The notes under the pieces: model-generated
Database searches by the model: none
Told to the model about the DNA's origin: nothing
What the model saw: the letters and a program-made list of their open reading frames with translations, nothing else
Made by a program: the position numbers and the translations under genes
In this document: positions 8,244-20,117 of the stretch, piece by piece
How positions within the stretch are numbered: position 1 is the first letter of the stretch
How the letters are laid out: every line of letters begins with the position of its first letter
IMG/VR virus record: IMGVR_UViG_3300003894_000023
Span: 1 to 26,968 of that record
DNA from: a virus
Reading direction: 5' to 3' (one strand)
Length of the DNA: 26,968 nt

Positions 8244-8326
8244 ATACTTATATCCGTGGCAGGCGCAGGAGCGGGAGATGGAGCGGGAGATGGAGCGAGA
8301 GCGGGAGCGGGAGCTGGATCGTATAA
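8240..8326 (+). CDS. Ser/Arg/Trp-repeat peptide, module 1 (28 aa)
   Basis: ATG 8240 overlaps the stop of the preceding gene (ATGA). The peptide begins MNTYIRGRRRSG and continues with GGAGCN-encoded Ser alternating with Gly, Arg, Trp and Glu, then ends at TAA 8324-8326 within TATAATTTTATCTAA. The same start and end sequences recur in modules 2 and 3. Whether it is translated is uncertain. Confidence 0.35.
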   Translation: MNTYIRGRRRSGRWSGRWSESGSGSWIV

Positions 8327-8358: not shown

Positions 8359-8616
8359 ATGAAAGTATTAGTTGAAGAGAAAGAGAACGAAGGGTTGGAA
8401 AGTTTGATGGGACAGCGTGTGACACTTTTGTGCGCTAACTACTTTTACACAGGAAAACTTGTAGGAGTTAATACCGATTGTGTAAAACTGGTAGACGGCG
8501 GTATCATTTACGAAACGGGTCCATGGGATTCAATAAATTGGAAAGATTATCAAGCTATTGAAGGGGACATCTATGTTCGAATACCTTTCATAGAATCCTT
8601 TGGAGTTCGCAAATGA
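8359..8616 (+). CDS. Conserved phage protein with small beta-barrel character, 85 aa
   Basis: ATG 8359 is preferred over the in-frame TTG 8353 because GAAAGG at 8345-8350 has suitable spacing. The protein contains LMGQRVTLLCANYFYTGKL, then GIIYETGPWDS, and ends RIPFIESFGVRK. This set of motifs recurs in small proteins of many phages and prophages and suggests an SH3- or Sm-like fold, but no function is established that I can name. Its stop overlaps ATG 8613 of the Ser/Arg-repeat frame. The final 19 codons are duplicated exactly 277 bases downstream. Confidence 0.7.
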   Translation: MKVLVEEKENEGLESLMGQRVTLLCANYFYTGKLVGVNTDCVKLVDGGIIYETGPWDSINWKDYQAIEGDIYVRIPFIESFGVRK

Positions 8617-8627
8617 ATACTCATATC
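8559..8627 (+). repeat. 69-bp direct repeat, first copy
   Basis: This segment covers the last 19 codons of the 8359 gene and the first codons of the module 2 peptide. It is identical base for base to 8836-8904, an offset of 277 bases. Identity stops abruptly on both sides, which indicates a recent tandem duplication or recombination between modules. Confidence 0.95.
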
Positions 8628-8825
8628 TTTTGTGGTAGAAGGAGCGGGAGCTGGAGCGGGAGCGGGAGCAGGAGCGGGAGCAGGAGCGGGAGCGAGAGCG
8701 AGAGCTGGAGCGAGAGCAAGAGCAGGAGTAGGAGCGGGAGCTGGAGCAGGAGCTGGAGCAGGAGCTGGAGCGGGAGCAGGAGCTGGAGCAGGAGCTGGAG
8801 CAGGAGCAGGAGCTGGAGCGTATAA
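8613..8825 (+). CDS. Ser/Arg-rich repeat protein, module 2 (70 aa)
   Basis: ATG 8613 overlaps the stop of the 8359 gene (ATGA), so translation would be coupled. After MNTHIFCGRR the product is a near-perfect alternation of Ser with Gly, Arg, Trp, Glu or Lys, resembling an RS domain. Serine is AGC (AGT once). The intervening residue is set by the variable sixth base of one hexamer and the first base of the next. The two other frames over the repeat are also open, giving Ala/Gly-rich text on this strand and Ser/Cys-rich text on the other, so openness alone is weak evidence. Coupling and the shared module layout favour this frame. No function is known. Confidence 0.4.
   Translation: MNTHIFCGRRSGSWSGSGSRSGSRSGSESESWSESKSRSRSGSWSRSWSRSWSGSRSWSRSWSRSRSWSV
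8641..8820 (+). repeat. Thirty-copy GGAGCN hexanucleotide array
   Basis: The 180 bases divide exactly into thirty hexamers of the form RGAGYN (almost all GGAGCN). Variation is confined mainly to the sixth base (G, T or A) and the first base (G or A). One unit is GGAGTA. The strand is almost all purine, with many GGG runs. Shorter arrays of the same hexamer lie in modules 1 and 3. Confidence 0.95.
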
Positions 8826-9253: not shown

Positions 9254-9626
9254 AGTTACTGTAGGAAAATACGACAGGGAGTTCCCAACCTGTTATTCAA
9301 CTTACTGGGAGACAAGTGGCCCACTAGAATGGTCTGATGCACTGCGCGTTTTCAACGAAATAGTTTTGGATCTTCCAGATGGCGAAGGAGAGAGATGGTT
9401 TAATGAGAATGGTGACTTTGAGGCATATGAATGGTTTAGTAAACGAACAATAAAATTACCAATAAAAGTCACACTCGACTTTTACTCTGTTGAAAAAAGA
9501 ATTTATGATTATTCAGCAATGCACACTTACGAAAAATTTTCTGGTAATAAAGTCCTGGGCCGTATTAAAGAATCAGTAGTTGAAACACAAAAACATTTAG
9601 TATTATTTGATAAAGGAGTAATTTGA
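9240..9626 (+). CDS. Hypothetical protein, 128 aa
   Basis: Start ATG 9240 lies within the end of the preceding gene. The product has several Trp and Tyr residues (STYWETSGPLEW, ERWFNENGDFEAYEWF) and no membrane segment or catalytic motif that I recognise. Its stop at 9624-9626 sits between the ribosome site at 9614-9618 and the two overlapping GTG codons of the methyltransferase locus, so it is translationally linked to that locus. Confidence 0.6.
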   Translation: MKNYKVTVGKYDREFPTCYSTYWETSGPLEWSDALRVFNEIVLDLPDGEGERWFNENGDFEAYEWFSKRTIKLPIKVTLDFYSVEKRIYDYSAMHTYEKFSGNKVLGRIKESVVETQKHLVLFDKGVI

Positions 9627-9631
9627 GTGTG
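9614..9631 (+). promoter_or_regulatory. Single ribosome site facing start codons in two frames
   Basis: AGGAG at 9614-9618 is followed by TTG 9623 (methyltransferase frame, 4-base spacing), GTG 9627 (overlapping 422-codon frame, 8-base spacing) and GTG 9629 (methyltransferase frame again, 10-base spacing). The two GTG codons share one base. This arrangement could feed ribosomes into both frames. Confidence 0.6.
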
Positions 9632-10171
9632 GCTACATACCCCAAAAACATTTTGTCCCTCTTCTCAGGAATTGGAGGACTTGATCTCGGAGTCAAGCTC
9701 GCTAACCCAAACGCTCGAACTGTCTGTTACGTTGAGCGGGAAACATACTGTGCGTCCGTTCTTGTGGAACGCATGGAAGAAAAGACCTTGGATTCGGCTC
9801 CTGTATGGGACGATATTACGACCTTCGATGGCAAGCCATGGCGTGGAGTCGTGGATACAATCATTGGCGGGTTCCCGTGTCAAGACCTATCCGTCGCAGG
9901 ACAACAAAAGGGTCTTCACAAAGGAACAAGATCCGGGCTTTTTTACGAGTATGTTAGAGTCGTTCGCGAAGTACGTCCCCGATACGTCTTCGTGGAAAAT
10001 GTTAGAGGGTTACTCAAGCAACAAGCGATGGAAACAGTCATCAAAGAGTTGGCCAACTTGGGGTTCAATGCGGAATGGGGTTTGTTCTCTAGCAAAGGAG
10101 TGGGAGCCAGCCATAAACGTGAGCGAGTGTTTATACTGGCGAAGTCCGCAGGCACAAGAGCCTGGAGTTAA
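9623..10171 (+). CDS. DNA (cytosine-5) methyltransferase, N-terminal part (motifs I-VIII)
   Basis: The 182-residue product has motif I LFSGIGGLDLG (13-23), motif IV GGFPCQDLS with catalytic Cys 86, motif VI VENV (Glu 125) and motif VIII HKRERVFIL (165-172). These bind S-adenosylmethionine and attack C6 of cytosine. The frame stops at 10169-10171, before any target-recognition region or motifs IX and X. Motif X reappears in the same frame at 10655-10915. The start is TTG 9623 or GTG 9629; the latter has better spacing. The whole coding stretch is overlapped by another open frame (9627-10895). Options are a two-polypeptide enzyme, frameshift expression, or an N-terminal remnant. Confidence 0.85.
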   Translation: MSVATYPKNILSLFSGIGGLDLGVKLANPNARTVCYVERETYCASVLVERMEEKTLDSAPVWDDITTFDGKPWRGVVDTIIGGFPCQDLSVAGQQKGLHKGTRSGLFYEYVRVVREVRPRYVFVENVRGLLKQQAMETVIKELANLGFNAEWGLFSSKGVGASHKRERVFILAKSAGTRAWS

Positions 10172-10895
10172 TCCTAATAGGCTGACAGGGGAATTTGGCC
10201 ATAGGATGTATGATAAGGAAACAGGCAGATTAGCCCAGGTTGGTCTCACACAACAAGCGGTAGCATGGCGAACGCCATCAGCAAGTGATCCTGTGGGCGG
10301 TGTAAAGGATTTGAATGATCCGAAGTATGCCAATGCAGATGCACCAAAGATAAAACTTAGTGATCAGGTGGTAGCATGGCGCACGCCAATAGCTGGTGAT
10401 GGTACGCACAACCATTGTTTAACACCGGCAGTTCTTGCGAACAAAACAACACTTACCTTATCAAACCAAGTGAATATAACAAACTGGCCCACTCCAGTAA
10501 CACAAGATTTAAAAAAAAGAGGTCCAAATAGCAAGCAACAAGGCTTAGCAGAAGAAGCATCAATTTGGCCTACTCCTACAACACGAGATTATAAAGGTGC
10601 TGTAACTGGAAAATCAATAGACCGAAAAGACGGTAAATCAAGAAAGGATCAATTATGCACTATAGCCGTCCACAACGACCTCCAAGTCCCGAACAAACAG
10701 ACCAATGGGAAGAAATCCTCGAACACGAACCACGACTCGCCCCTGCTCAAGAAAAGGTTGAACCCGACCTTTGTCGAGTGGCTGATGGGACTGCCAATTG
10801 GCTGGAGCTTGCCAATACCTACAGAAGTGAAAGATTACAAGCATTGGGAAACGGAGTCGATCCAATGGTTGCGGCGGTTGCTTGGTCAGTATTAA
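9627..10895 (+). CDS. Overlapping 422-codon protein with WPTP-type repeats
   Basis: This frame stays open for 1269 bases across both methyltransferase parts and the segment between them. Residues 183-343 (about 10172-10654) are the only sensible translation there. That part holds repeats of W-(R/P)-(S/T)-P at W171, W214, W251, W287 and W314, the last followed by TTRDYKG. A segment DTSSWKMLEGYS with SWPTWGSMRNGVC lies at 119-153, and FVEWLMGLPIGW at 382-393. From memory, the same motif series occurs in phage proteins filed as DNA methyltransferases; I cannot check this here. With equal base use, 422 codons without a stop has a chance near one in a billion. Start GTG 9627 has ideal spacing to AGGAG. 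Confidence 0.6.
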   Translation: MWLHTPKTFCPSSQELEDLISESSSLTQTLELSVTLSGKHTVRPFLWNAWKKRPWIRLLYGTILRPSMASHGVESWIQSLAGSRVKTYPSQDNKRVFTKEQDPGFFTSMLESFAKYVPDTSSWKMLEGYSSNKRWKQSSKSWPTWGSMRNGVCSLAKEWEPAINVSECLYWRSPQAQEPGVNPNRLTGEFGHRMYDKETGRLAQVGLTQQAVAWRTPSASDPVGGVKDLNDPKYANADAPKIKLSDQVVAWRTPIAGDGTHNHCLTPAVLANKTTLTLSNQVNITNWPTPVTQDLKKRGPNSKQQGLAEEASIWPTPTTRDYKGAVTGKSIDRKDGKSRKDQLCTIAVHNDLQVPNKQTNGKKSSNTNHDSPLLKKRLNPTFVEWLMGLPIGWSLPIPTEVKDYKHWETESIQWLRRLLGQY

Positions 10896-10915
10896 TGGAC
10901 AGATTTAATGAATAA
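10655..10915 (+). CDS. C5-methyltransferase C-terminal part carrying motif X
   Basis: The 86-residue frame is in the same phase as the N-terminal methyltransferase part. It contains the C-terminal signature of this phage enzyme family: PPSPEQTDQWEEIL, a CRVADGTANW segment, and motif X as SERLQALGNGVDPMVAAVAW. AAAGGA at 10643-10648 lies six bases before ATG 10655, so it could be translated independently as a small second subunit. Stops at 10169, 10175 and 10634 separate it from the N-part. It overlaps the 422-codon frame almost completely. No motif IX or recognisable target-recognition domain is in this piece. Confidence 0.65.
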   Translation: MHYSRPQRPPSPEQTDQWEEILEHEPRLAPAQEKVEPDLCRVADGTANWLELANTYRSERLQALGNGVDPMVAAVAWSVLMDRFNE

Positions 10916-10981: not shown

Positions 10982-11206
10982 ATGGGAATCGTAGCATCTT
11001 TACAAAAAGAACTCAGAATGGCAAAGAAATCAAATCTTCCTCCTGAAATGGAAAATCATATCATGGAGATTGCCGCTTTAAAAGAACGCATCCAAGAACT
11101 GGAAACAGAACTGGACGAAGCTCGAAAGACTGCTCGCAAGGATGAGCTGGCACGTAAAAAGGCCAACAAGAAAGCAACACAAACTTCTCAGGAGGATAAC
11201 AGATAA
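10982..11206 (+). CDS. Small coiled-coil protein, 74 aa
   Basis: Start ATG 10982 has AGGAG about eight bases upstream. Residues 25-65 form a clear heptad pattern of charged residues (ALKERIQELETELDEARKTARKDELARKKANKK), ending in a Lys/Gln-rich tail. There are no other domains. The stop shares one base with the exonuclease start at 11206, so the two are co-translated. Function is unknown; oligomerisation or scaffolding is plausible from the coiled coil. Confidence 0.6.
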   Translation: MGIVASLQKELRMAKKSNLPPEMENHIMEIAALKERIQELETELDEARKTARKDELARKKANKKATQTSQEDNR

Positions 11207-11748
11207 TGCACGTAATGATCGACTTGGAGACATTGGGAACACGGCCAGGGTCAGTGATATTGAGTATAGGAGCATGTGCTTTTGAATCCCACGGGTTTGA
11301 GTATGAGATACCAGACGAGCACACGTTCTACCAAAATATTTCAGTGGAATCCTCAAAAGCGGTGGGACTCACTGTGGATCAGGCGACTATTGATTGGTGG
11401 AAAAAGCAATCAGAGGTTGCTAAAGATGCTCTCCGAGTCGATCAAATACCTGTAAGAGATGCTCTTGCAAAATTTACACTCTGGTTTCGCAAAGTGCGTG
11501 GCAAGCACTTATGGTCCCACGGTGCTACCTTTGACATACCTCTTATAGAAGCGGCTTGTAGGGCAGTAGAACCTCAAATCCTACCGCCTTGGAAGTTCTG
11601 GGACGCTCGTGACACGCGAACAATTTATGATCTTGCTGGTATCGAACCAGATAGATCATCAGGGACTCATCATAACGCTCTGGACGATTCTATCAACCAA
11701 GCACGAGCTGTCCAGCAGGCGTACAATATTTTGAAAGGGAATAATTAA
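11206..11748 (+). CDS. DEDDh 3'-5' exonuclease (RNase H-like fold)
   Basis: The 180-residue product starts MHVMIDLETLG, with D6 and E8 as the first metal ligands. SHGATFD supplies D110, and HHNALDDS supplies H156 and D161 in the HxAxxD spacing of DEDDh enzymes. It resembles the compact phage/Rv2179c-like group rather than full DnaQ. Substrates could be single-stranded DNA or RNA ends. The start follows a strong GGAGGA site. It ends in an overlap with the dNMP kinase start at 11748, so the two form one translational unit. The polymerase downstream has its own proofreading-type domain, so this enzyme is probably not its sole proofreader. Confidence 0.85.
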   Translation: MHVMIDLETLGTRPGSVILSIGACAFESHGFEYEIPDEHTFYQNISVESSKAVGLTVDQATIDWWKKQSEVAKDALRVDQIPVRDALAKFTLWFRKVRGKHLWSHGATFDIPLIEAACRAVEPQILPPWKFWDARDTRTIYDLAGIEPDRSSGTHHNALDDSINQARAVQQAYNILKGNN

Positions 11749-12278
11749 TGAAAATTGTAGCTTTCACTGGGAAAATGTTCTCGGGCAAAACAACCGCCGC
11801 TCAATTCCTCGTTGAAAATTGTGGTTATACTCGCATACCTTTTTGTGAAACGTTGAAGCAAATGTGTGCCGCTATGGGTCTGTCCGACGAGCAATTATAT
11901 GGCTCGGAGAAGAACACACCTTCCACAGTATTCTGCGGAAAAACACCCAGGTATATCATGCAGACGCTCGGCACAGATTGGGCAAGGAAGATGATAGGAG
12001 AGGATATTTGGGTGAACCTGTGGGAAATCAACGTACTCAAACAAATGCAAAAATTTGAATCTAAAATTGTAATTGACGATCTACGTTTCCCGAACGAAGC
12101 TAAGATGGTGAACAGGCTCGGTGGCAAAGTTTTAAAGATTGTGAGGCCTCTTACAAATGATGAAGCTGTATCGAAACATCCTAGCGAAGTGTTGATGGAC
12201 GGTATATTGTGCGAAGAACTCCACAACGATTCGACGATGGAGGCGTTTGAAACACAACTAAAGGAGCGTTTTGGATGA
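11748..12278 (+). CDS. Deoxynucleoside monophosphate kinase
   Basis: The 176-residue protein opens with a P-loop GKMFSGKTT (G8, G13-K14-T15) directly after a beta strand. It contains RYIMQTLGTDWARKMIGEDIWVN, a region typical of phage dNMP kinases related to T4 gene 1. WVNLWE and IVIDDLRFPNEA (Walker B-like) follow. It would phosphorylate dNMPs, recycling nucleotides released from host DNA for phage synthesis. It overlaps its neighbours at both ends (11748 and 12275). Length is close to shorter phage members of the family. Confidence 0.85.
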   Translation: MKIVAFTGKMFSGKTTAAQFLVENCGYTRIPFCETLKQMCAAMGLSDEQLYGSEKNTPSTVFCGKTPRYIMQTLGTDWARKMIGEDIWVNLWEINVLKQMQKFESKIVIDDLRFPNEAKMVNRLGGKVLKIVRPLTNDEAVSKHPSEVLMDGILCEELHNDSTMEAFETQLKERFG

Positions 12279-12475
12279 AGCCCAAAAAGAAGGATAAAAT
12301 AAAGGAAATGATGCTCAGAGTAGAGGGCGTAACTGGAGTACAACTCACTAAGTTCTGTGGGTATGATAAAGGTTGGGCATCAGTTGGGTATATGCTGGCA
12401 AAGGAACATAATCTTGCATTTAAGACTAAGAAAGAAGGAAGAATAGTCCGTTATTTTTTGAGGATAAAACAATGA
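12275..12475 (+). CDS. Hypothetical small winged-helix-like protein, 66 aa
   Basis: The start overlaps the kinase stop (ATGA) with AAAGGAG well placed upstream. The product is basic. It has a helix-turn-helix-like segment (GVTGVQLTKFCGYDKGWASVGYMLAKEHNL) and then a strand-turn-strand (FKTKKEGRIVRYFLRIK), the layout of a small winged helix. DNA binding is an inference from this pattern and the charge. The stop overlaps the next start at 12472. Confidence 0.55.
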   Translation: MKPKKKDKIKEMMLRVEGVTGVQLTKFCGYDKGWASVGYMLAKEHNLAFKTKKEGRIVRYFLRIKQ

Positions 12476-12627
12476 GCTTAGAACTTATTGGCGATGAACT
12501 TTATTTTGAAGACCATGTTGTAGCAACACTGGACCCAGAAATGTTTGAAACGGTGCGCGGTAGATTGGAAGAGCAAATCGAGTTGTTCAACGAGTGGGAA
12601 AGAGAGACACAGAAAGAGAGACAGTAA
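12472..12627 (+). CDS. Hypothetical acidic protein, 51 aa
   Basis: ATG 12472 overlaps the previous stop (ATGA), and the stop lies one base before ATG 12629 of the next gene. The product is acidic, begins MSLELIGDELYFEDHVVATLDP, and ends with a helical stretch LEEQIELFNEWERETQKERQ. Its position in an unbroken coupled series makes it a real gene. No function is recognised. Confidence 0.6.
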   Translation: MSLELIGDELYFEDHVVATLDPEMFETVRGRLEEQIELFNEWERETQKERQ

Positions 12628-12628
12628 T

Positions 12629-13597
12629 ATGTTCGAATTTTTAAAAGGTGGATACAAAGAAAGTAATCTTGGATCTTCAGATTACGTGCGTTTGAGCGAT
12701 GGAAAGGCATCCGTCTACAATAGTTACTTCGCTCTGGAACAACCTTTAACCAGCGCATTTCATCCTGATATTTCGTGCTGTGTATTGGGAAGTCGTTTCT
12801 TTGCTGTAACGTCTTGCTCGGATGAGAATATGAAGGTCAAGCAGAAGGATGGTAAATTATTAATCCAAACATCCTCAGGAAAAGTATCGCTGGCCACTGT
12901 GCCCGTCGAGTCTGTGCCTAAAATCGAATGGTTCGAGGAACACGGTGCAAAAGATACTATGTTGGAAATTAAATTCGATGACCTCCTGCATTTTTGTTCG
13001 AAAAATTTTCCTAATGAAATACTTCGGTCTGTCTATGTTAAAGATGGTTATGCTTACACCACAGATAATGTCACTCTCACACGGACCGAGAGCGAGTTAC
13101 CAGACTGCCTACTGCCTTATGACGTTTGCAAGTTTTTTAAGAACGGAATGCTTGCGAAAGTTGGGCTAAAAAACGGAGCAACACGCTTCGATTTTGAAGA
13201 TGGTAGTCGAATGCAGAGCGGTCAATTTGCTGGCAAATACCCCGATATCCCATCAATTTTAGAACCGATGATTCGTGAAGCGCACAACATTGAACCCTTC
13301 ATGTTCCAAGGCAACTATGCAGATCAAATGAAGCGTTTGGGAGCAGTGATTGATAATAAGTTGTTACCCATTCAGCTTGTTGATGACACGTTGGTTACGT
13401 GTAGCGAGAAGGGCACTGCTGTTGAAACGTTCGATGCTCAGTGGCCAGATGTCCGTGTGGGATTCGAGCAAATGAATAGAGCATTGAGCAGGGGGTTAAT
13501 ATACCTTCGCATTTTGAGCGATGGGAAGTGCCTGTTCACGAACGCTTCAGAAATTGACGAAGCTTCCATTGTCCACGTCATCTCAAATCGTGTCTGA
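12629..13597 (+). CDS. Possible DNA polymerase sliding-clamp-like protein
   Basis: The longer open frame from 12545 overlaps the previous gene. ATG 12629, directly after the upstream stop, is the likely start and gives 322 residues. The middle region reads EILRSVYVKDGYAYTTDNVTLTRTESELPDCLLP, close to the pattern of beta-clamp domains, where a strand pair with ATDG-type text precedes a strand leading to a domain linker. AGKYPDIPSI fits the FPD segment of such domains. The gene lies immediately upstream of the family A polymerase. The protein is shorter than the bacterial beta clamp (about 366), so the assignment rests on partial pattern and context. Confidence 0.45.
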   Translation: MFEFLKGGYKESNLGSSDYVRLSDGKASVYNSYFALEQPLTSAFHPDISCCVLGSRFFAVTSCSDENMKVKQKDGKLLIQTSSGKVSLATVPVESVPKIEWFEEHGAKDTMLEIKFDDLLHFCSKNFPNEILRSVYVKDGYAYTTDNVTLTRTESELPDCLLPYDVCKFFKNGMLAKVGLKNGATRFDFEDGSRMQSGQFAGKYPDIPSILEPMIREAHNIEPFMFQGNYADQMKRLGAVIDNKLLPIQLVDDTLVTCSEKGTAVETFDAQWPDVRVGFEQMNRALSRGLIYLRILSDGKCLFTNASEIDEASIVHVISNRV

Positions 13598-13598
13598 T

Positions 13599-15578
13599 AT
13601 GAGTGGCTTCTTCCCAAATGTTGAAACCACCCATGTGGTCGCTACTCCTCCCGTCCTGCCACCCTCAGATTGGGTTGCACCCAAACTATCTGATCTACCA
13701 GAGTTCTCACGGGCAAGTCGTATAGCGATCGACTGCGAAACATACGATCCTGATTTGAAGACACTTGGCCCAGGTGTCCGCAGGACGGGCTACGTCGTCG
13801 GTATTTCGATTGGTATCGACGATGGCCCACGTTGGTATTTGCCCCTACGTCATGAAGGTGGCAATAATATGGACAACCCAGATCAGGTGGTTAATTGGGT
13901 ACGTGATCAATTCATGCGGTTCAAGGGTGATGTGGTAGGCACGAATTTGATGTACGATTTGGATTATCTTGCGGAAATTGGATGTCAGTTCAATCATTCA
14001 GATGTGAGGTATATGGATGTCAGTATTGCGGAGCCATTATTGAATGAACATAAATTCCGATATTCACTAGACAGCATTTCCAAAGAACATCTCGGTGAAC
14101 CCAAAGTTGAAGAACTTATGATTCAGGCTGCACACGCCATGAAGATCAAAGATGTCAAGGCGAATATATGGCGACTACCTGCTCGATTTGTTGGACCATA
14201 TGCCACAGCAGATGTTGATTTGCCACTTCGTATCCTCCCGATACAATTGCAAAAACTGGAAGATGAGGAGCTTATGCGAGTGTGGGATTTGGAATGTCGG
14301 TTGATTCCCGTTCTGTTCGAGATGCGTAGACGGGGAGTACGTGTTGATCTCAAAAAAGCAGAGCAAGTACTGATAAAATTACAGAACCTGGAAAACGAAC
14401 AGCTACACCGCGCCAAGCTTGCTTGCGGAAAGGAAATCCAGTTGTATGTTTCAGCACAATTGGGACCGTTGATCGAGGCTCGCGGTTATACACTTCCGAG
14501 AACTGAGAAAAAGCAAGAGTATCAGATTAAAAGCGAATGGTTAAAAAGTCATGCGGGTGAAGATCCATTGATTGAGTCTATTTATTTAGCTCGAAAGTTT
14601 TACAAAGCACGTACAACATTTATTGAAGGTCATATATTCAAACAGCATATTGGCGGGCGTGTCCATGCTCAATATCATCAAGTTAAAGGCGATAGTGATA
14701 AAGGGAACGATAGGAAACGAGGTACTCCCGGTAGACTAAGCAGTAGTGATCCCAACTTGCAGAATATACCCAGTCGCGATCCGATGCTCGGGCCGTTGAT
14801 ACGAAGCATTTTTTTGCCAGAGGAAAGGGAAGTTTACGAACGACACGATTGGAGTCAAATTGAGTACAGGTTCTTAGCCCACTATGCTCGGGGACGTGGG
14901 GCATCTGAAATGCGCGAGGCGTACAATAATGATCCCAACACTGACTTCCACAAAAAGTGCGCAGTTATGGCAGGTATTGATCCCGAGGACTCTTACAAGA
15001 GAAAGCAGGTAAAGAACGTAAATTTTGGGGCGGTGTACGGGAGTGGGAAGAAGACAACTGCCGAAACTATGGGCGTGAGTATTGAGGAAGCGGAAGCGTT
15101 CTTGAATTTATATCATTCTAAATTGCCTTTCGTTAAAAAAACATTTAAAGCAGTATCCGCAAAAGCTGATGAGACAGGATTCATCCACACAATAATGGGT
15201 AGAAGAAGTAGGTTTCCATTGTGGGAACCAGCAGACTGGGATCAATACGGTGATCCACTACCATATAAGCAGGCATTGAAGCAATATGGAAAAATAAAAC
15301 GTGCAAAGACTTACAAAGCTACCAACAGTTTGTTCCAAAACAACGCCGCAGACCTTATGAAATTAGCCATGGTCAAACAGTATGAGGATGGTGTTCACGA
15401 TGTATTAGGTGCGCCACTTCTCACAGTGCATGACGAACTTGGTCAAAGTCGCCCACAAACTCCAGAAGGTGAAAAAGCCATACAGCACATTAAGCACGTA
15501 ATGGAAACGTGCATGGAATTGCGAGTTCCCATCATTGCGGAAAGGGAGTCTGGAAAAAATTGGGGGGAGTGCAAATAA
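13599..15578 (+). CDS. polA: Family A DNA polymerase with 3'-5' exonuclease domain
   Basis: The start is placed at ATG 13599, one base after the upstream stop. The longer frame from 13521 lies inside the preceding gene. The 659-residue enzyme begins with an RNase H-like exonuclease: IAIDCETYD (D45, E47), NLMYDLDYL, and YATADVDL. The polymerase domain has LSSSDPNLQNIPSRD, motif A HDWSQIEYR (D417), motif B RKQVKNVNFGAVYG (R468-G477) and motif C TVHDEL (H611-D612-E613). There is no 5' nuclease domain, as usual for phage replicative PolA. It is the main phage replicase, acting with the primase-helicase, SSB and possibly the clamp-like protein. Confidence 0.95.
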   Translation: MSGFFPNVETTHVVATPPVLPPSDWVAPKLSDLPEFSRASRIAIDCETYDPDLKTLGPGVRRTGYVVGISIGIDDGPRWYLPLRHEGGNNMDNPDQVVNWVRDQFMRFKGDVVGTNLMYDLDYLAEIGCQFNHSDVRYMDVSIAEPLLNEHKFRYSLDSISKEHLGEPKVEELMIQAAHAMKIKDVKANIWRLPARFVGPYATADVDLPLRILPIQLQKLEDEELMRVWDLECRLIPVLFEMRRRGVRVDLKKAEQVLIKLQNLENEQLHRAKLACGKEIQLYVSAQLGPLIEARGYTLPRTEKKQEYQIKSEWLKSHAGEDPLIESIYLARKFYKARTTFIEGHIFKQHIGGRVHAQYHQVKGDSDKGNDRKRGTPGRLSSSDPNLQNIPSRDPMLGPLIRSIFLPEEREVYERHDWSQIEYRFLAHYARGRGASEMREAYNNDPNTDFHKKCAVMAGIDPEDSYKRKQVKNVNFGAVYGSGKKTTAETMGVSIEEAEAFLNLYHSKLPFVKKTFKAVSAKADETGFIHTIMGRRSRFPLWEPADWDQYGDPLPYKQALKQYGKIKRAKTYKATNSLFQNNAADLMKLAMVKQYEDGVHDVLGAPLLTVHDELGQSRPQTPEGEKAIQHIKHVMETCMELRVPIIAERESGKNWGECK

Positions 15579-15581
15579 TAT

Positions 15582-15623
15582 TTGTAAACAGTTTAGTTTT
15601 AGTATATAGTAAGTAAAACTTAC
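15582..15623 (+). promoter_or_regulatory. Sigma70-like promoter with two palindromes before dcd
   Basis: TTGTAA (15582-15587) and TATAGT (15605-15610) are separated by 17 bases. A perfect palindrome TAAACAGTTTA (15585-15595) overlaps the -35 box. A second inverted repeat, GTAAGT-AAA-ACTTAC (15609-15623), lies just after the -10 box. Both are candidate operators. The next start is ATG 15633 with CGGAG upstream. Confidence 0.65.
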
Positions 15624-15632
15624 GGAGATGTT

Positions 15633-16199
15633 ATGGTACTTTCAGATTTTAAAATAAAAAATATGGTGGAAAATGCTCAACCTTTAATCACTCCGTTCAT
15701 TGCCCAAAAAGAGTCTTTTGGTGGTGTGTCAAGAGGACTGAGTTCAGCAGGGTACGACGTGACGTTGGGTACTGAATTTGTACGATTCTTAGAGAATGTT
15801 AGACATGAACCGGTGTTTCCAAATTCGTCTTTTGATCCCTCTCAGTTTAAGCGTATAACGAGAGAGATTGGATTTGTCCCAATATTTAAGAACGAATTAC
15901 TCTTGTGCCACACCGTTGAAGTGATATCAATACCCGTTGACGTTGTAGGCGTGGTACACGATAAGAGTACGTTTGCACGATTGGGATTAGCAGTTCAGAA
16001 CACAGTACTGGAACCTGGGTGGTCTGGTCAAGTTACACTGGAATTGACTAATCATGGTCCTTCAACAATTATGTTGCCCGTTCACGGTGGTATTGCACAA
16101 GTAGTGTTTCACACTCTAACAGAACCATCAAGTTCACCTTACGATGGAAAATATAACGAGCAACGTGGTGTGGTTTTGCCAAGAAAAAGCGAGGAATGA
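15633..16199 (+). CDS. dcd: dCTP deaminase-like nucleotide hydrolase
   Basis: The 188-residue protein has the dCTP deaminase/dUTPase fold signatures: SSAGYDVTLG (38-46), DKSTFARLGL (K111, S112, R116), and LEPGWSGQVTLELTNHG with the catalytic-type Glu 137. A C-terminal GKYNEQRG closes the nucleotide site. Dcd converts dCTP to dUTP, feeding dTTP synthesis; some relatives also hydrolyse dUTP. Length is close to bacterial Dcd (about 193). It heads a new transcription unit from the promoter at 15582. Confidence 0.9.
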   Translation: MVLSDFKIKNMVENAQPLITPFIAQKESFGGVSRGLSSAGYDVTLGTEFVRFLENVRHEPVFPNSSFDPSQFKRITREIGFVPIFKNELLLCHTVEVISIPVDVVGVVHDKSTFARLGLAVQNTVLEPGWSGQVTLELTNHGPSTIMLPVHGGIAQVVFHTLTEPSSSPYDGKYNEQRGVVLPRKSEE

Positions 16200-16200
16200 A

Positions 16201-16368
16201 ATGAAAAAATGGGAATATTTAACGATTGAGAATGCGTACGCTATCAGTCCGAAAATGTTAAACGAGCAAGGCGAACAAGGTTGGGAACTTGTAACAATAG
16301 CTCAATTTAGCCACACTTGTGTAGCGTTTTTTAAACGTGAGAAGAGCGAAATAATAACACCTAATTGA
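16201..16368 (+). CDS. DUF4177-like small protein, 55 aa
   Basis: The frame is open from 16144, but ATG 16201, directly after the dcd stop with GAGGAA upstream, is the natural start. The product reads KKWEYLTIEN, then LNEQGEQGWELVTIAQ and VAFFKRE. This is the compact DUF4177 pattern (WEY, LN-x-x-G-x-x-GWEL, FKR), seen in phages and bacteria with unknown function. The stop overlaps the TTG 16365 of the next frame. Confidence 0.75.
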   Translation: MKKWEYLTIENAYAISPKMLNEQGEQGWELVTIAQFSHTCVAFFKREKSEIITPN

Positions 16369-16373
16369 GTGAT

Positions 16374-16613
16374 ATGCACATGACCAAATTCGGTATATTT
16401 ACAACACACACATGTGAGTACTGTGACGAAATTAATCAAACTTTTTTATTCCACCGTAAAGGAAATAAAGCTACTATTTTGGAATTTGATAATTTAGATT
16501 CTGCTTACGATTGTTTAAACAAAGAATTTACTGCACAACAACGCCTAGATGGGTGTCTTCAAATCAAACAACTTCCAAGAAAACTTTGGGGAGTTACGAG
16601 GACTGTAAAATAA
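16374..16613 (+). CDS. Hypothetical protein, 79 aa
   Basis: The frame opens at TTG 16365, but ATG 16374 (or ATG 16380) is the more likely start; none has a strong ribosome site. The product has a CEYCDE motif near the N-terminus (GIFTTHTCEYCDEINQTF) and one further Cys in DGCLQIK. It might coordinate metal or be redox-active, but a complete ligand set is not visible. No family is recognised. Confidence 0.5.
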   Translation: MHMTKFGIFTTHTCEYCDEINQTFLFHRKGNKATILEFDNLDSAYDCLNKEFTAQQRLDGCLQIKQLPRKLWGVTRTVK

Positions 16614-16614
16614 T

Positions 16615-17076
16615 ATGCCAATACTCGAATCAGATTTCTGGAGGAATATGCGCTTGGGACAACCCAAGTGGGTGAAGAAGCAGGGAAAGCTTGTACGCAT
16701 CGAATCCGCAACACAAAGTGGTATTCCTGATGTGCATTACACTGTCAGTGGGCATTCCGGTTGGATTGAATTAAAAGTTATTGGTTCGTTGCCACGTGTG
16801 GCCAGTGGCATTGTTAAAGTCGCTCACTTTAAACCTGTCCAACGAGAATGGATCAAAAGTGAAATGAAGTGTGGTGGCATGGCGTTTGTATTCTTACTTG
16901 CTGACACGAAGAAGGGACGAAAATATTTCCTCTTCGACGGGCTGTCTGCCGCTATGGAACTTGGTCGAACACTCAGCTATGAAAATGCAATTAGAAGTGC
17001 TGTTTTCTTCAGTGAAGATACAGTGCAATGGGATACTTTTTGGGAAAGAATAATTTCATGCAAGCGATCTTATTAG
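16615..17076 (+). CDS. PD-(D/E)XK nuclease (VRR-NUC-like)
   Basis: The 153-residue protein shows the PD-(D/E)XK core as GIPDVHY (D39) followed by GWIELKV (E52, K54), and then HFKPVQREWI (Q76) and a GGMAFVFLLAD strand. This order matches phage VRR-NUC-like or resolvase-type nucleases that cut branched or flapped DNA. It probably processes replication or recombination intermediates. ATG 16615 follows the previous stop by one base. The end overlaps the start of the double-HTH gene at 17058. Confidence 0.75.
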   Translation: MPILESDFWRNMRLGQPKWVKKQGKLVRIESATQSGIPDVHYTVSGHSGWIELKVIGSLPRVASGIVKVAHFKPVQREWIKSEMKCGGMAFVFLLADTKKGRKYFLFDGLSAAMELGRTLSYENAIRSAVFFSEDTVQWDTFWERIISCKRSY

Positions 17077-17396
17077 ATGAAATAACAGAGGGAGAGAAAT
17101 TCCATCTCTCTCGTAGACGAAAGGGGTTGACGCAAGCGCAATCTTCCAAATTGCTGGCATTCCCTGTGGTGTCAATACGAGACATGGAGATGGGCAATCT
17201 TCCTGTCCCGAAGTCGCTAGAAGTTGATCTTAACGCAACTGATTCTGAATTATGTTATATTGCACGACGTAGGTCTGGTTTGACACAGCGCCAACTCGCA
17301 ACACGATTGGGAAAGAGTCATGTCGCTATAATAAAAATGGAATCTGGTGAGTGGAATTGTGAACTCATTTTGGAATACTTTAAGAATATGTCTTGA
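17058..17396 (+). CDS. Tandem helix-turn-helix (XRE-like) regulator
   Basis: ATG 17058 is chosen over 17028 because the earlier frame lies inside the nuclease gene; 112 residues result. Two similar HTH units follow each other. Residues 14-50 read LSRRRKGLTQAQSSKLL, and residues 66-108 read IARRRSGLTQRQLATRLGKSHVAIIKMESGE. The second fits the XRE/Cro pattern well; the first is more diverged (loop FPVVSIRDMEMG). Together they could act like a covalent dimer on a palindrome. It is the last gene before the structured intergenic region and may control it or the promoter palindromes at 2260 and 15585. Confidence 0.7.
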   Translation: MQAILLDEITEGEKFHLSRRRKGLTQAQSSKLLAFPVVSIRDMEMGNLPVPKSLEVDLNATDSELCYIARRRSGLTQRQLATRLGKSHVAIIKMESGEWNCELILEYFKNMS

Positions 17397-17529
17397 TGAA
17401 CACAAGGGGCTCCTTTCACTGTGACCACTGCAACTTGGCACGTTAAAGTATCACCTGTATCCCACTGGATATAGAGTCGCCGCCCCGCACTCATTGTTAC
17501 AGCGTCTCGTAAGGTGATTCATGTTGCAT

Positions 17530-17583
17530 CTGACTGTGCCCTCGCCACTAGGTTAGGGGCAACTGACCTGGTGGCGCAGTCAG
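17530..17583 (+). other. Long two-part hairpin
   Basis: CTGACTG (17530-17536) pairs with CAGTCAG (17577-17583). After a bulge TGCCCT, CGCCACTAGGT (17543-17553) pairs with ACCTGGTGGCG (17566-17576) with a single G-U, leaving a 12-base loop. TTTATTG follows. It could be a terminator for the double-HTH transcript or the core of a structured RNA. Confidence 0.65.
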
Positions 17584-17724
17584 TTTATTGAACTAATTAA
17601 TCATGGGGGCATCTCCCAAGTGTCCGCAGTGGCATGGACATCGACGGTATACCTGTACACGTTATGTGTTTTAGTTCCTGCCCCCTTAAAGTTGATGGGG
17701 AACCCAAGGTATATCAAGCCACAT

Positions 17725-17757
17725 GATCACAGCCCCTACAGAATGGGGGCTGCGATC
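17725..17757 (+). other. GC-rich hairpin before the primase gene
   Basis: CAGCCCC (17730-17736) pairs with GGGGCTG (17746-17752) around a 9-base loop. GATC on each side extends the stem after one mismatch. It is followed by TTAAAAATT and the primase ribosome site, so it may attenuate transcription or shape the leader. Confidence 0.6.
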
Positions 17758-17786
17758 TTAAAAATTAATTTGTGGAGACAGAACGT

Positions 17787-20117
17787 ATGCTACTGAACTT
17801 CTTAAAAAAGTTTGGTGATAAATATCACATTCAATTATCGGCAATAGACCCGAACGGTGTCTCAGCCATCCAAACCCAAACATTCCTTCCCGACGAGTAC
17901 GCAACGACCTGTCTTGCGTTTGTTGAGAAATGGAATGGCACACGCAATCTATATTTCACAGTAAATCCACTCAAAGCACCTCTCAACAAGAAACCAACTC
18001 TCGCAGATATTGGACAGCTTCGATGGTTACACGTTGACATCGACCCAGAAGATGGAGCTAATTGGGAAAAGAGCAGGGAGGATATTCTTTCCCGTTTGAA
18101 AAGTTATTCACCTGCTCCAACAATGATTATTGACAGTGGGAACGGATACCAAGGCTTCTGGCAATTGGAGAAGCCGATCTTAGTGAACAATGTTTCACAC
18201 GGTCAGGATCTAGCAGGATACAATATTGCGTTGCGTGATGATCTTCAAGGGGACAACGTACAAGACATAAGTCGCATCATGCGACTCCCATACACTACCA
18301 ACGTCCCTAATGTTAAAAAAATAGCCAAGGGACGAACAAGCAGGCCTACAGAATTAATCTACTATCATGAGCAGATTCAGTACCCGTTAAACAAATTCAG
18401 ACTTGTAAAAGATTCCAGTAAAGCAGTTCTTCCGAATAAATCGGACATCAACTTTGCCAATCTGCCTGATGTCAACCTTTCAGAATTTGAAATAAATGAG
18501 GAGGTGAAAGAGGCCATCCTGACTGGTAATCGAGCAAAAGATCCCAGTAGGAGTGAAACCGTGATGTTCGTGGGATGTGCGTTGGCAAAAGCTGGTGCTG
18601 AAAGAGAACAAGTAGCCTCTATCTTATTAAATTCAAATTATGGAATCAGCGACTCAATATTGAGTTCCCCGTCACCCAACTCTTACTGCTTGCGTCAAGT
18701 AGACAGATGTTTTGATCTGTCTGTAAATGCGGAACTGGCAGAGTTGAATCAAAAATATTCATTCGTAATGGACGGGGGTAAGGTACGCATTTTTAAGTCA
18801 TCATACAGCGATATTCTGCGTCGTGAATCATTGGAACGAATTGCAGTGTCAGATTTTAAGTATATGTACAACAATAGGCAAGTGAGCGTTGGGAAGAAAA
18901 AGGACGGTTCACATCAAAAAATGCCTTTGGGTTCGTGGTGGTTACAGCACCCGGCTCGAAAAACTTACAAACAGATTATTTTTGATCCAACATCGGAAAC
19001 CCACAACGGCTGTTATAATCTGTGGAAGGGTTTTAACGTTGAGCAACATGAAAAAGAAAACGGTTGGGACTTGATGCAACAACATATTCTGAATAACATT
19101 TGCTCGGGCGTTACTGAATACTACGAATACTTGATAAATTGGATGGCACTTTGTGTTCAACAGCCTGGAAAGCCCGGCCAGGTGGCCATCGTAATGCGCG
19201 GCGAGCAAGGAACTGGAAAAGGAATATTAGCACGTAGTTTTGGGCATATATGGGGACAACACTTCCTGCACATATCCCACACACGCCATTTGACCGGTAA
19301 CTTCAACGCGCATCTCCGTGACTGTATTTTCCTATTTGCTGACGAAGCATTCTGGGCAGGAGACAAACAGGGGGAAGGAGCACTCAAACAATTAGTGACT
19401 GAACCTATTTTGACAATCGAGGCCAAGGGTATTGACCCAGTAGCCGCTCCAAACTTTATTCATCTGATGATGGCCAGTAACCATGAATGGGTCATACCAG
19501 CCGGACGGATGGAAAGAAGGTTCTTCGTTTTGGACGTATCATCGAAAAAAATACAACAACGAGACTACTTCAAAAGAATATCAGATCAAATGGAGTCTGG
19601 AGGGTACGAAGCTATGCTACATGATCTCATGTGCAAAGATTTGACCTCCTTCGATGTGACCCGAGTCCCTCAAACTAAAGCATTAGCCGAACAAAAAGAG
19701 ATAAGCATGGAACCCCATGAACAATGGCTGTTCCAGTGTTTGCAAAGTGGGCAAACTTTACCAGAACATGGGGGCTGGCATGATGAAGTTGAGCTGGACA
19801 GGCTGTACGAAGAGTACCTTGTTATGTGCGAGAATATTGGTGTCAAACGACGCAAGAACAAGATACATTTTGGGAAATTTATGAAAAAAATATTCCCACG
19901 AATGACAAAGGTGCAGAAGATTATTAAAAAACGAATGCGACGAGAGGGCAACATAATTGAGTGCAAAGCTACAATGTATTGCTTACCAAATTTAGAAAGT
20001 GCTCGCAAATATTTCGAAGTTTATACAGGCGCACAGCATACGTGGGACAATGCTGATCAAGTGCAAGGGTTTGTTGGAAGTTATAACAATTATAATGGAG
20101 CCGGACACAATGACTAA
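17787..20117 (+). CDS. Primase-helicase: AEP primase domain fused to SF3 (D5-like) helicase
   Basis: ATG 17787, with GGAG nine bases upstream, is preferred over GTG 17772; 776 residues. The N-terminal archaeo-eukaryotic primase domain shows LHVDIDPED (D84, D86 metal ligands), DSGNGYQGFW (with Gln where many AEPs have His) and DISRIMRLPYTTN. The C-terminal SF3 helicase has Walker A GEQGTGKG (472-479), Walker B IFLFADEA (D519, E520), MMASNHEW and the arginine region RMERRFFVLDV. It would prime and unwind DNA at the phage fork. The gene follows a 390-base structured region that may hold the origin. Its stop overlaps the HU-like start. Confidence 0.92.
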   Translation: MLLNFLKKFGDKYHIQLSAIDPNGVSAIQTQTFLPDEYATTCLAFVEKWNGTRNLYFTVNPLKAPLNKKPTLADIGQLRWLHVDIDPEDGANWEKSREDILSRLKSYSPAPTMIIDSGNGYQGFWQLEKPILVNNVSHGQDLAGYNIALRDDLQGDNVQDISRIMRLPYTTNVPNVKKIAKGRTSRPTELIYYHEQIQYPLNKFRLVKDSSKAVLPNKSDINFANLPDVNLSEFEINEEVKEAILTGNRAKDPSRSETVMFVGCALAKAGAEREQVASILLNSNYGISDSILSSPSPNSYCLRQVDRCFDLSVNAELAELNQKYSFVMDGGKVRIFKSSYSDILRRESLERIAVSDFKYMYNNRQVSVGKKKDGSHQKMPLGSWWLQHPARKTYKQIIFDPTSETHNGCYNLWKGFNVEQHEKENGWDLMQQHILNNICSGVTEYYEYLINWMALCVQQPGKPGQVAIVMRGEQGTGKGILARSFGHIWGQHFLHISHTRHLTGNFNAHLRDCIFLFADEAFWAGDKQGEGALKQLVTEPILTIEAKGIDPVAAPNFIHLMMASNHEWVIPAGRMERRFFVLDVSSKKIQQRDYFKRISDQMESGGYEAMLHDLMCKDLTSFDVTRVPQTKALAEQKEISMEPHEQWLFQCLQSGQTLPEHGGWHDEVELDRLYEEYLVMCENIGVKRRKNKIHFGKFMKKIFPRMTKVQKIIKKRMRREGNIIECKATMYCLPNLESARKYFEVYTGAQHTWDNADQVQGFVGSYNNYNGAGHND

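Follow-up and report, generated by a model that had tools for sequence, protein, structure and literature searches.

In a 26,968-nt stretch of viral DNA (positions 1 to 26,968 of IMG/VR record IMGVR_UViG_3300003894_000023; hereafter called the window), one DNA-methylating enzyme appears, as judged from sequence, to be encoded as two halves that share their DNA in different reading frames, and so it does in the roughly 130 related phage loci compared with it. The double coding is exceptional in its length and in how widely it is conserved, and in this phage one half is split once more. We put at roughly 80% the probability that the products of these frames, A and B, are subunits of a single C5-cytosine methyltransferase resembling M.EcoHK31I, an assignment that draws partly on analogy with that enzyme and that would take a three-ORF form in this phage. 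That the dual coding is real and conserved we consider close to certain. In bacteria and phages, extended overlaps on one strand with demonstrable constraint on both frames are seldom seen, and proof of them is difficult; the ~130 diverse loci provide a clean comparative test with internal controls.

Layout of the locus

The reading frames and the sites around them are as follows (positions in the window).

9613..9618, + strand: AAGGAG, Shine-Dalgarno-like, read directly; could serve both the A1 and the B starts
9623..10171, + strand: A1, catalytic part of a C5-cytosine methyltransferase with motifs I-VIII; 182 codons, start at TTG 9623 or GTG 9629
9627..10895, + strand: B, in the +1 frame relative to A; 422 codons, GTG start; phrog_1008 family, WPTP repeats, motif-IX-like C-terminus
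10172..10634, + strand: middle segment, coding in B only; WPTP-repeat, TRD-like; 13 frame-A stops besides the A1 stop at 10169
10641..10648, + strand: AGAAAGGA, Shine-Dalgarno-like, upstream of A2; read directly as AGAAAGGATCAATTATG, with ~6 nt spacing
10655..10915, + strand: A2, ORF in the same frame as A1; 86 codons, ATG start; EPxxxRVADG and motif X (LQALGNGVDPMVAAVAW)
10752..10805, + strand: motif-IX-like stretch of B (KRLNPTFVEWLMGLPIGW), placed on motif IX by profile comparison

The three ORFs stand exactly where an earlier note, made from the letters of this DNA alone, had placed them. AAGGAG is spaced 4 nt from the A1 TTG (9623) and 8 nt from the B GTG (9627). The second Shine-Dalgarno-like site, AGAAAGGA, may be partly dictated by the B residues RKDQL. 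The motif-IX-like stretch of B overprints a conserved part of A2, EPDLCRVADGTANW (10760-10801), and in homologs both frames are constrained there.

Within the virus record, the locus is flanked by replication genes; PHROG matches place a replication module (exonuclease, dNMP kinase, polymerase processivity factor, DNA polymerase, primase) at 11206-20117. Roughly 30 tandem copies of the hexamer GGAGCN occupy 8640-8820 (also 8268-8318), inside an ORF at 8613-8825 with a Gly/Ser/Arg-rich reading, and both strands have long open frames there. The left end of the record (3-92) is a perfect 17-base tandem repeat with 5.3 copies of TTTTTTTGGTAAGAAAC.

Protein identities

Searching the frames separately gave distinct families. 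A1 matches PF00145 in Pfam (E 2.4e-39), as expected if frame A is the C5-methyltransferase that had been claimed, and phrog_363 in PHROG (E 1e-53); a phmmer search of the PDB matched M.HaeIII and M.HhaI. The catalytic motifs of PF00145 are present in frame A (I, IV as PCQ, VI as ENV, and VIII). This locus does not encode a single-chain enzyme of this class, since A1 stops after motif VIII, motif X is on A2 and the IX-like stretch is in frame B.

B matches phrog_1008, labelled “DNA methyltransferase” (E 5.7e-27), and found no Pfam family and no PDB match; a search of viral contigs with its sequence gave no match, and the profile of B varies too much to yield a pattern for scanning. All 26 aligned B proteins match phrog_1008, which bears out the earlier note's statement that second-frame motifs of this kind recur in phage proteins labelled methyltransferase. 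The five W-(R/P)-(S/T)-P repeats that had been reported in B are there, as WRSP, WRTP, WRTP, WPTP and WPTP. The statement that FPCQDLS in one frame and KTYPSQD in the other are the same DNA needs correction: FPCQDLS corresponds to SRVKTYP in B, and KTYPSQD is only partly the same DNA.

A2 matches the A profile (E 1e-14) and phrog_29583 (E 9e-6) and aligns with the C-termini of A in the relatives. Its ATG lies just upstream of a block conserved in those relatives (PPxPxD...W, EPxxxR.ADG, GNGV.P). A search with A2 alone found no relatives.

Overlap beyond chance in this phage

As a null, we recoded one frame synonymously and scored the other, using a B HMM built without the window. When A1 was recoded, the +1 frame acquired a mean of 4.7 stops and none of 500 shuffles was stop-free; the observed number is 0. 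The B profile scores 133.8 bits over A1, versus a null maximum of 119.9. Where B overlaps A2, its profile scores 44.1 (null maximum 27.9), and with B recoded instead, the A score is 35.7 (null maximum 29.3).

The middle segment is different. Frame A has 14 stops there versus 15.3 expected, with an A-frame HMM score of 0.1. As 10172-10634 codes for B only, with frame A at an unconstrained stop density, the earlier note's description of a locus read in two frames over its whole length holds for both overlaps and fails between them.

Conservation across related loci

The comparison set consisted of 132 loci besides the window: 46 found through A1, 80 through the motif GG[FYI]PCQ[DP]xS and 6 from annotated phages, such that 126 of the 132 were retrieved by frame A alone. 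By A and B profiles, B runs along A in the +1 frame in essentially all of them. Far from being riddled with stops, the +1 frame of the family has 202 where 760 are expected, and many of the 202 are at B's own end. In a control set of 27 ordinary C5 methyltransferases from chromosomes, none of them with a B match, the +1 frame has 299 stops versus 306.5 expected.

Outside the profile set, the real +1 frame outscored all 40 A-synonymous recodings with the B profile in 79 of 79 loci. The recodings reached a median of 148 bits, compared with 205 for the real frame; since a recoded A still gives a substantial B score, A partly dictates B. With ordinary C5 methyltransferases as the control, constraint is seen on both frames beyond what each imposes on the other.

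Chromosomal occurrences of B are few (10 of 274 gammaproteobacterial genomes). Most phage records that we viewed annotate A only, and some annotate both ORFs.

Individual loci depart from the pattern. At L069 (1842-2741), the clearest such case among the loci read, one stop breaks frame B and A is intact. In L062, L073, L105 and L120, motif I, IX or X swaps between the frames once within the dual-coded gene. We considered these swaps as natural fusions and excluded them as evidence, as they look like single-base indels and are possibly assembly errors. An indel in a dual-coded gene exchanges both proteins instead of merely truncating one.

Selection on both frames

A and B share a start region. 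In 103 of 104 loci the B start is ATG (93) or GTG (10), and in 95 of the 104 an ATG, GTG or TTG of A lies 4 nt upstream of it; the typical start sequence is NTGAATGAG, with the pattern NTGAATG. At codon 2 of A, 91 loci have AAT and none has AAC, while CGT stands there in 10 with no other arginine codon, as the start of B requires. In the window the start sequence is TTGAGTG, where A starts at TTG or at GTG 9629, B starts at GTG, and there is a single AAGGAG.

In the overlap with motifs I-VIII, A is strongly constrained and B less so. Even so, degenerate sites in A, four-fold ones among them, are frozen by conserved B residues: Arg108 is CGA in 78 of 80 (Asp in B), Val114 is GTG in 76 of 76 (the Trp of SSWKT), Ala133 is GCC in 77 of 78 (the Pro of WPRWG) and Gly136 is GGG in 99 of 108 (Gly). 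The reverse effect, A freezing sites that are synonymous in B, is found in I-VIII and in IX/X and is absent from the linker; across the middle segment, frame A is free at B-synonymous sites, with a heterozygosity of about 0.6-0.74. In the last segment, the same DNA reads EPxxGRVADGVAxRVDRLKALGNGQVP in A and LNPxWVEWLMGWPxGWTDL in B, and both are constrained; four-fold sites of A fixed by B here include Val278, which is GTG in 71 of 72 (Trp in B), and Ala279, which is GCT in 68 of 68 (Leu). Codon-level tests thus find constraint on both frames, rather than on one only, in each of the two overlaps, as the suggestion of a conserved overprinted gene had implied.

Constraint on the first ~100 residues of B is weak, and within I-VIII change is still fastest at A position 3, which is position 2 of B; with A dominant in that segment, positional substitution rates alone cannot separate the hypotheses. 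That fast third position, together with the substantial B score retained by recoded A, is what one would cite for the view that only A is a gene and that its amino-acid composition and codon usage leave the +1 frame open. We give this view almost no credence: the real frame beats every recoding in each of the 79 loci, the four-fold sites are frozen and the AAT second codon is kept, ordinary C5 methyltransferases have no such effect, and the middle segment of the window is open in B only.

Proposed role of B

If A and B are subunits of one enzyme, A (I-VIII plus X) would be the catalytic, AdoMet-binding half. B would start 4 nt later from the same ribosome-binding site and supply the TRD, in the form of the WPTP repeats, together with motif IX; the two chains would assemble into one enzyme in the style of M.EcoHK31I. 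Most simply read, B would be the subunit that gives the enzyme of A its target recognition and its motif IX, and several observations bear on this. In the relatives examined, we found no TRD or motif IX in A. A profile of the IX-X region (L033, L089, Catdawg and ArV1) matches the IX-X region of ordinary methyltransferases at E 0.009, and the full B profile alone aligns at the place of motif IX, weakly (E 0.37); the motif by which B is assigned to IX is a short one.

For structure prediction with AF2, the alignment was built from viral-contig loci only. In the model of a homologous A (L055), confidence is mostly very high for the catalytic core, residues 188-273 come out as disordered, and the helix of motif X is again predicted confidently. 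Compared with M.HhaI, it aligns over 189 of 327 residues including both ends (Z 22.6), and the portion of M.HhaI left unaligned is about the size of the small domain bearing the TRD and motif IX. AF2 of B alone was poor (pLDDT 52).

The lack of a confident fold for B alone, and of any match to Pfam or PDB methyltransferase models, would also suit an independent overprinted protein, e.g., a DNA-binding or counter-defence factor, that is not a subunit at all. We regard this as improbable: it would leave A in the relatives examined with neither TRD nor motif IX, B has a motif-IX-like end, and its frame goes on to encode motif X in L033, L089, Catdawg and ArV1.

The order of motifs across the frames (I-VIII in A, TRD/IX in B, X in A) is that of a single-chain enzyme, which raises the idea of ribosomal frameshifting from A1 into B and back into A to make one chain. 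Such a route would require two shifts, and B has its own start 4 nt from that of A, kept in 103 of 104 loci. Conserved B residues within the I-VIII overlap, and relatives that hold the A linker open over the B-only region, where a double shift would make it needless, likewise argue for separate chains; we consider frameshifting very improbable.

Linker, motif X and the state of the enzyme in this phage

Under the two-subunit reading, A in most relatives would be a single chain in which a disordered linker bridges the B-only region. The middle segment could be measured in 108 other loci, where frame A contains 17 stops versus 305 expected under B-synonymous recoding, and the linker is stop-free in 104 of the 108 (12.7 expected). 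The stops are in L033 (10 observed, 10.2 expected), L089 (4, 3.8), L080 (2, 3.4) and L091 (1, 2.5), and near-neutral levels are reached in the window, L033, L089 and L080. Motif X is on the I-VIII chain in most relatives, in frame B in L033, L089 and L080, and on the separate ORF A2 in the window. With X in frame B, A in L033, L089 and L080 is free to end after VIII. Taken together, stop counts and X placement indicate that the linker is held open where A must reach X in one chain. The window no longer needs an open linker yet retains A1 and A2.

In this phage, the linker would have decayed, leaving A in two separate pieces, A1 with I-VIII and A2 with X and its own start site. Translation of B and A2, target recognition by B, and methylation would be expected, perhaps to protect the phage's DNA against restriction by the host. 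We advance only tentatively, at slightly less than even odds, a working enzyme whose three chains, each translated on its own, would carry I-VIII, TRD plus IX, and X, with the TRD-IX chain overprinting nearly all of the other two. The search turned up no close relative in which A2 stands apart, and A2 may therefore be a remnant in decay.

It is accordingly worth weighing a version in which the family is as proposed and the methyltransferase of this phage is decaying, with A2 a remnant and the enzyme dead. The 14 frame-A stops between A1 and A2, the failure to find close relatives with a separate A2, and an A1 start that is only TTG or GTG are all compatible with decay. Yet A1, B and A2 each remain open and keep their motifs. 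Over A2 the two frames are open at once, and the A score of 35.7 exceeds the recoding maximum of 29.3; an RBS-like site precedes A2, whose start falls immediately upstream of the conserved block. On balance, we judge decay unlikely, if deserving of more weight than the alternatives above.

Comparison with known systems

In M.EcoHK31I, the small-subunit gene lies within the large-subunit gene, in another frame. The large subunit of this enzyme (recognition sequence YGGCCR) carries motifs I-VIII and X and the small subunit motif IX (PMC3404938), and both polypeptides are needed for activity, according to the title of Lee, Kam and Shaw (1995), cited in PMC3404938. The locus described here, compared by described layout, would be alike in having I-VIII and a putative motif IX on separate polypeptides. 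It differs in that B runs nearly all of A's length and bears WPTP repeats, that the TRD, found in the large subunit of M.EcoHK31I, is here probably on B, and that motif X is on a third ORF (A2) instead of the I-VIII chain.

M.AquI (CYCGRG) has its motifs on two polypeptides, I-VIII on alpha and IX-X on beta (PMC3404938). It shares the split after VIII, and the same layout (I-VIII / TRD-IX-X), with motifs IX then X in one frame, is seen in L033, L089, Catdawg and ArV1. The window differs from it in having X in frame A and not B, and the frames here overlap over hundreds of codons.

Among annotated phages, K1ind2, Paenibacillus phage Leyra, Arthrobacter phage ArV1 and Mycobacterium phage Catdawg each have two overlapping ORFs annotated as DNA methyltransferases. 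Their A and B families are the same as here, a likeness known from annotation and family matches, and none is in three pieces. The overlap is partial in ArV1 and Catdawg: about 200-270 nt are shared between an I-VIII ORF and a TRD-IX-X ORF. This short-overlap form is possibly close to the ancestral layout. The phrog_1008 entry is labelled just “DNA methyltransferase”, and says nothing of overlap with the catalytic gene.

Our search of the open-access literature, outside which most subscription papers lie, found M.EcoHK31I and M.AquI and no conserved phage dual coding. The kind is thus known from M.EcoHK31I, but we found no description, in the literature searched, of conservation this broad or of a form in three parts.

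Discussion

If A and B belong to one enzyme, as is probable, their staying together would be explained. The B family is widespread and has been largely overlooked, as most of the records viewed carry a one-frame annotation. The variants, in which X is in A, in B or on its own, make up a series in which the splitting and rejoining of overlapping genes can be studied, and the B proteins may offer new DNA target specificities.
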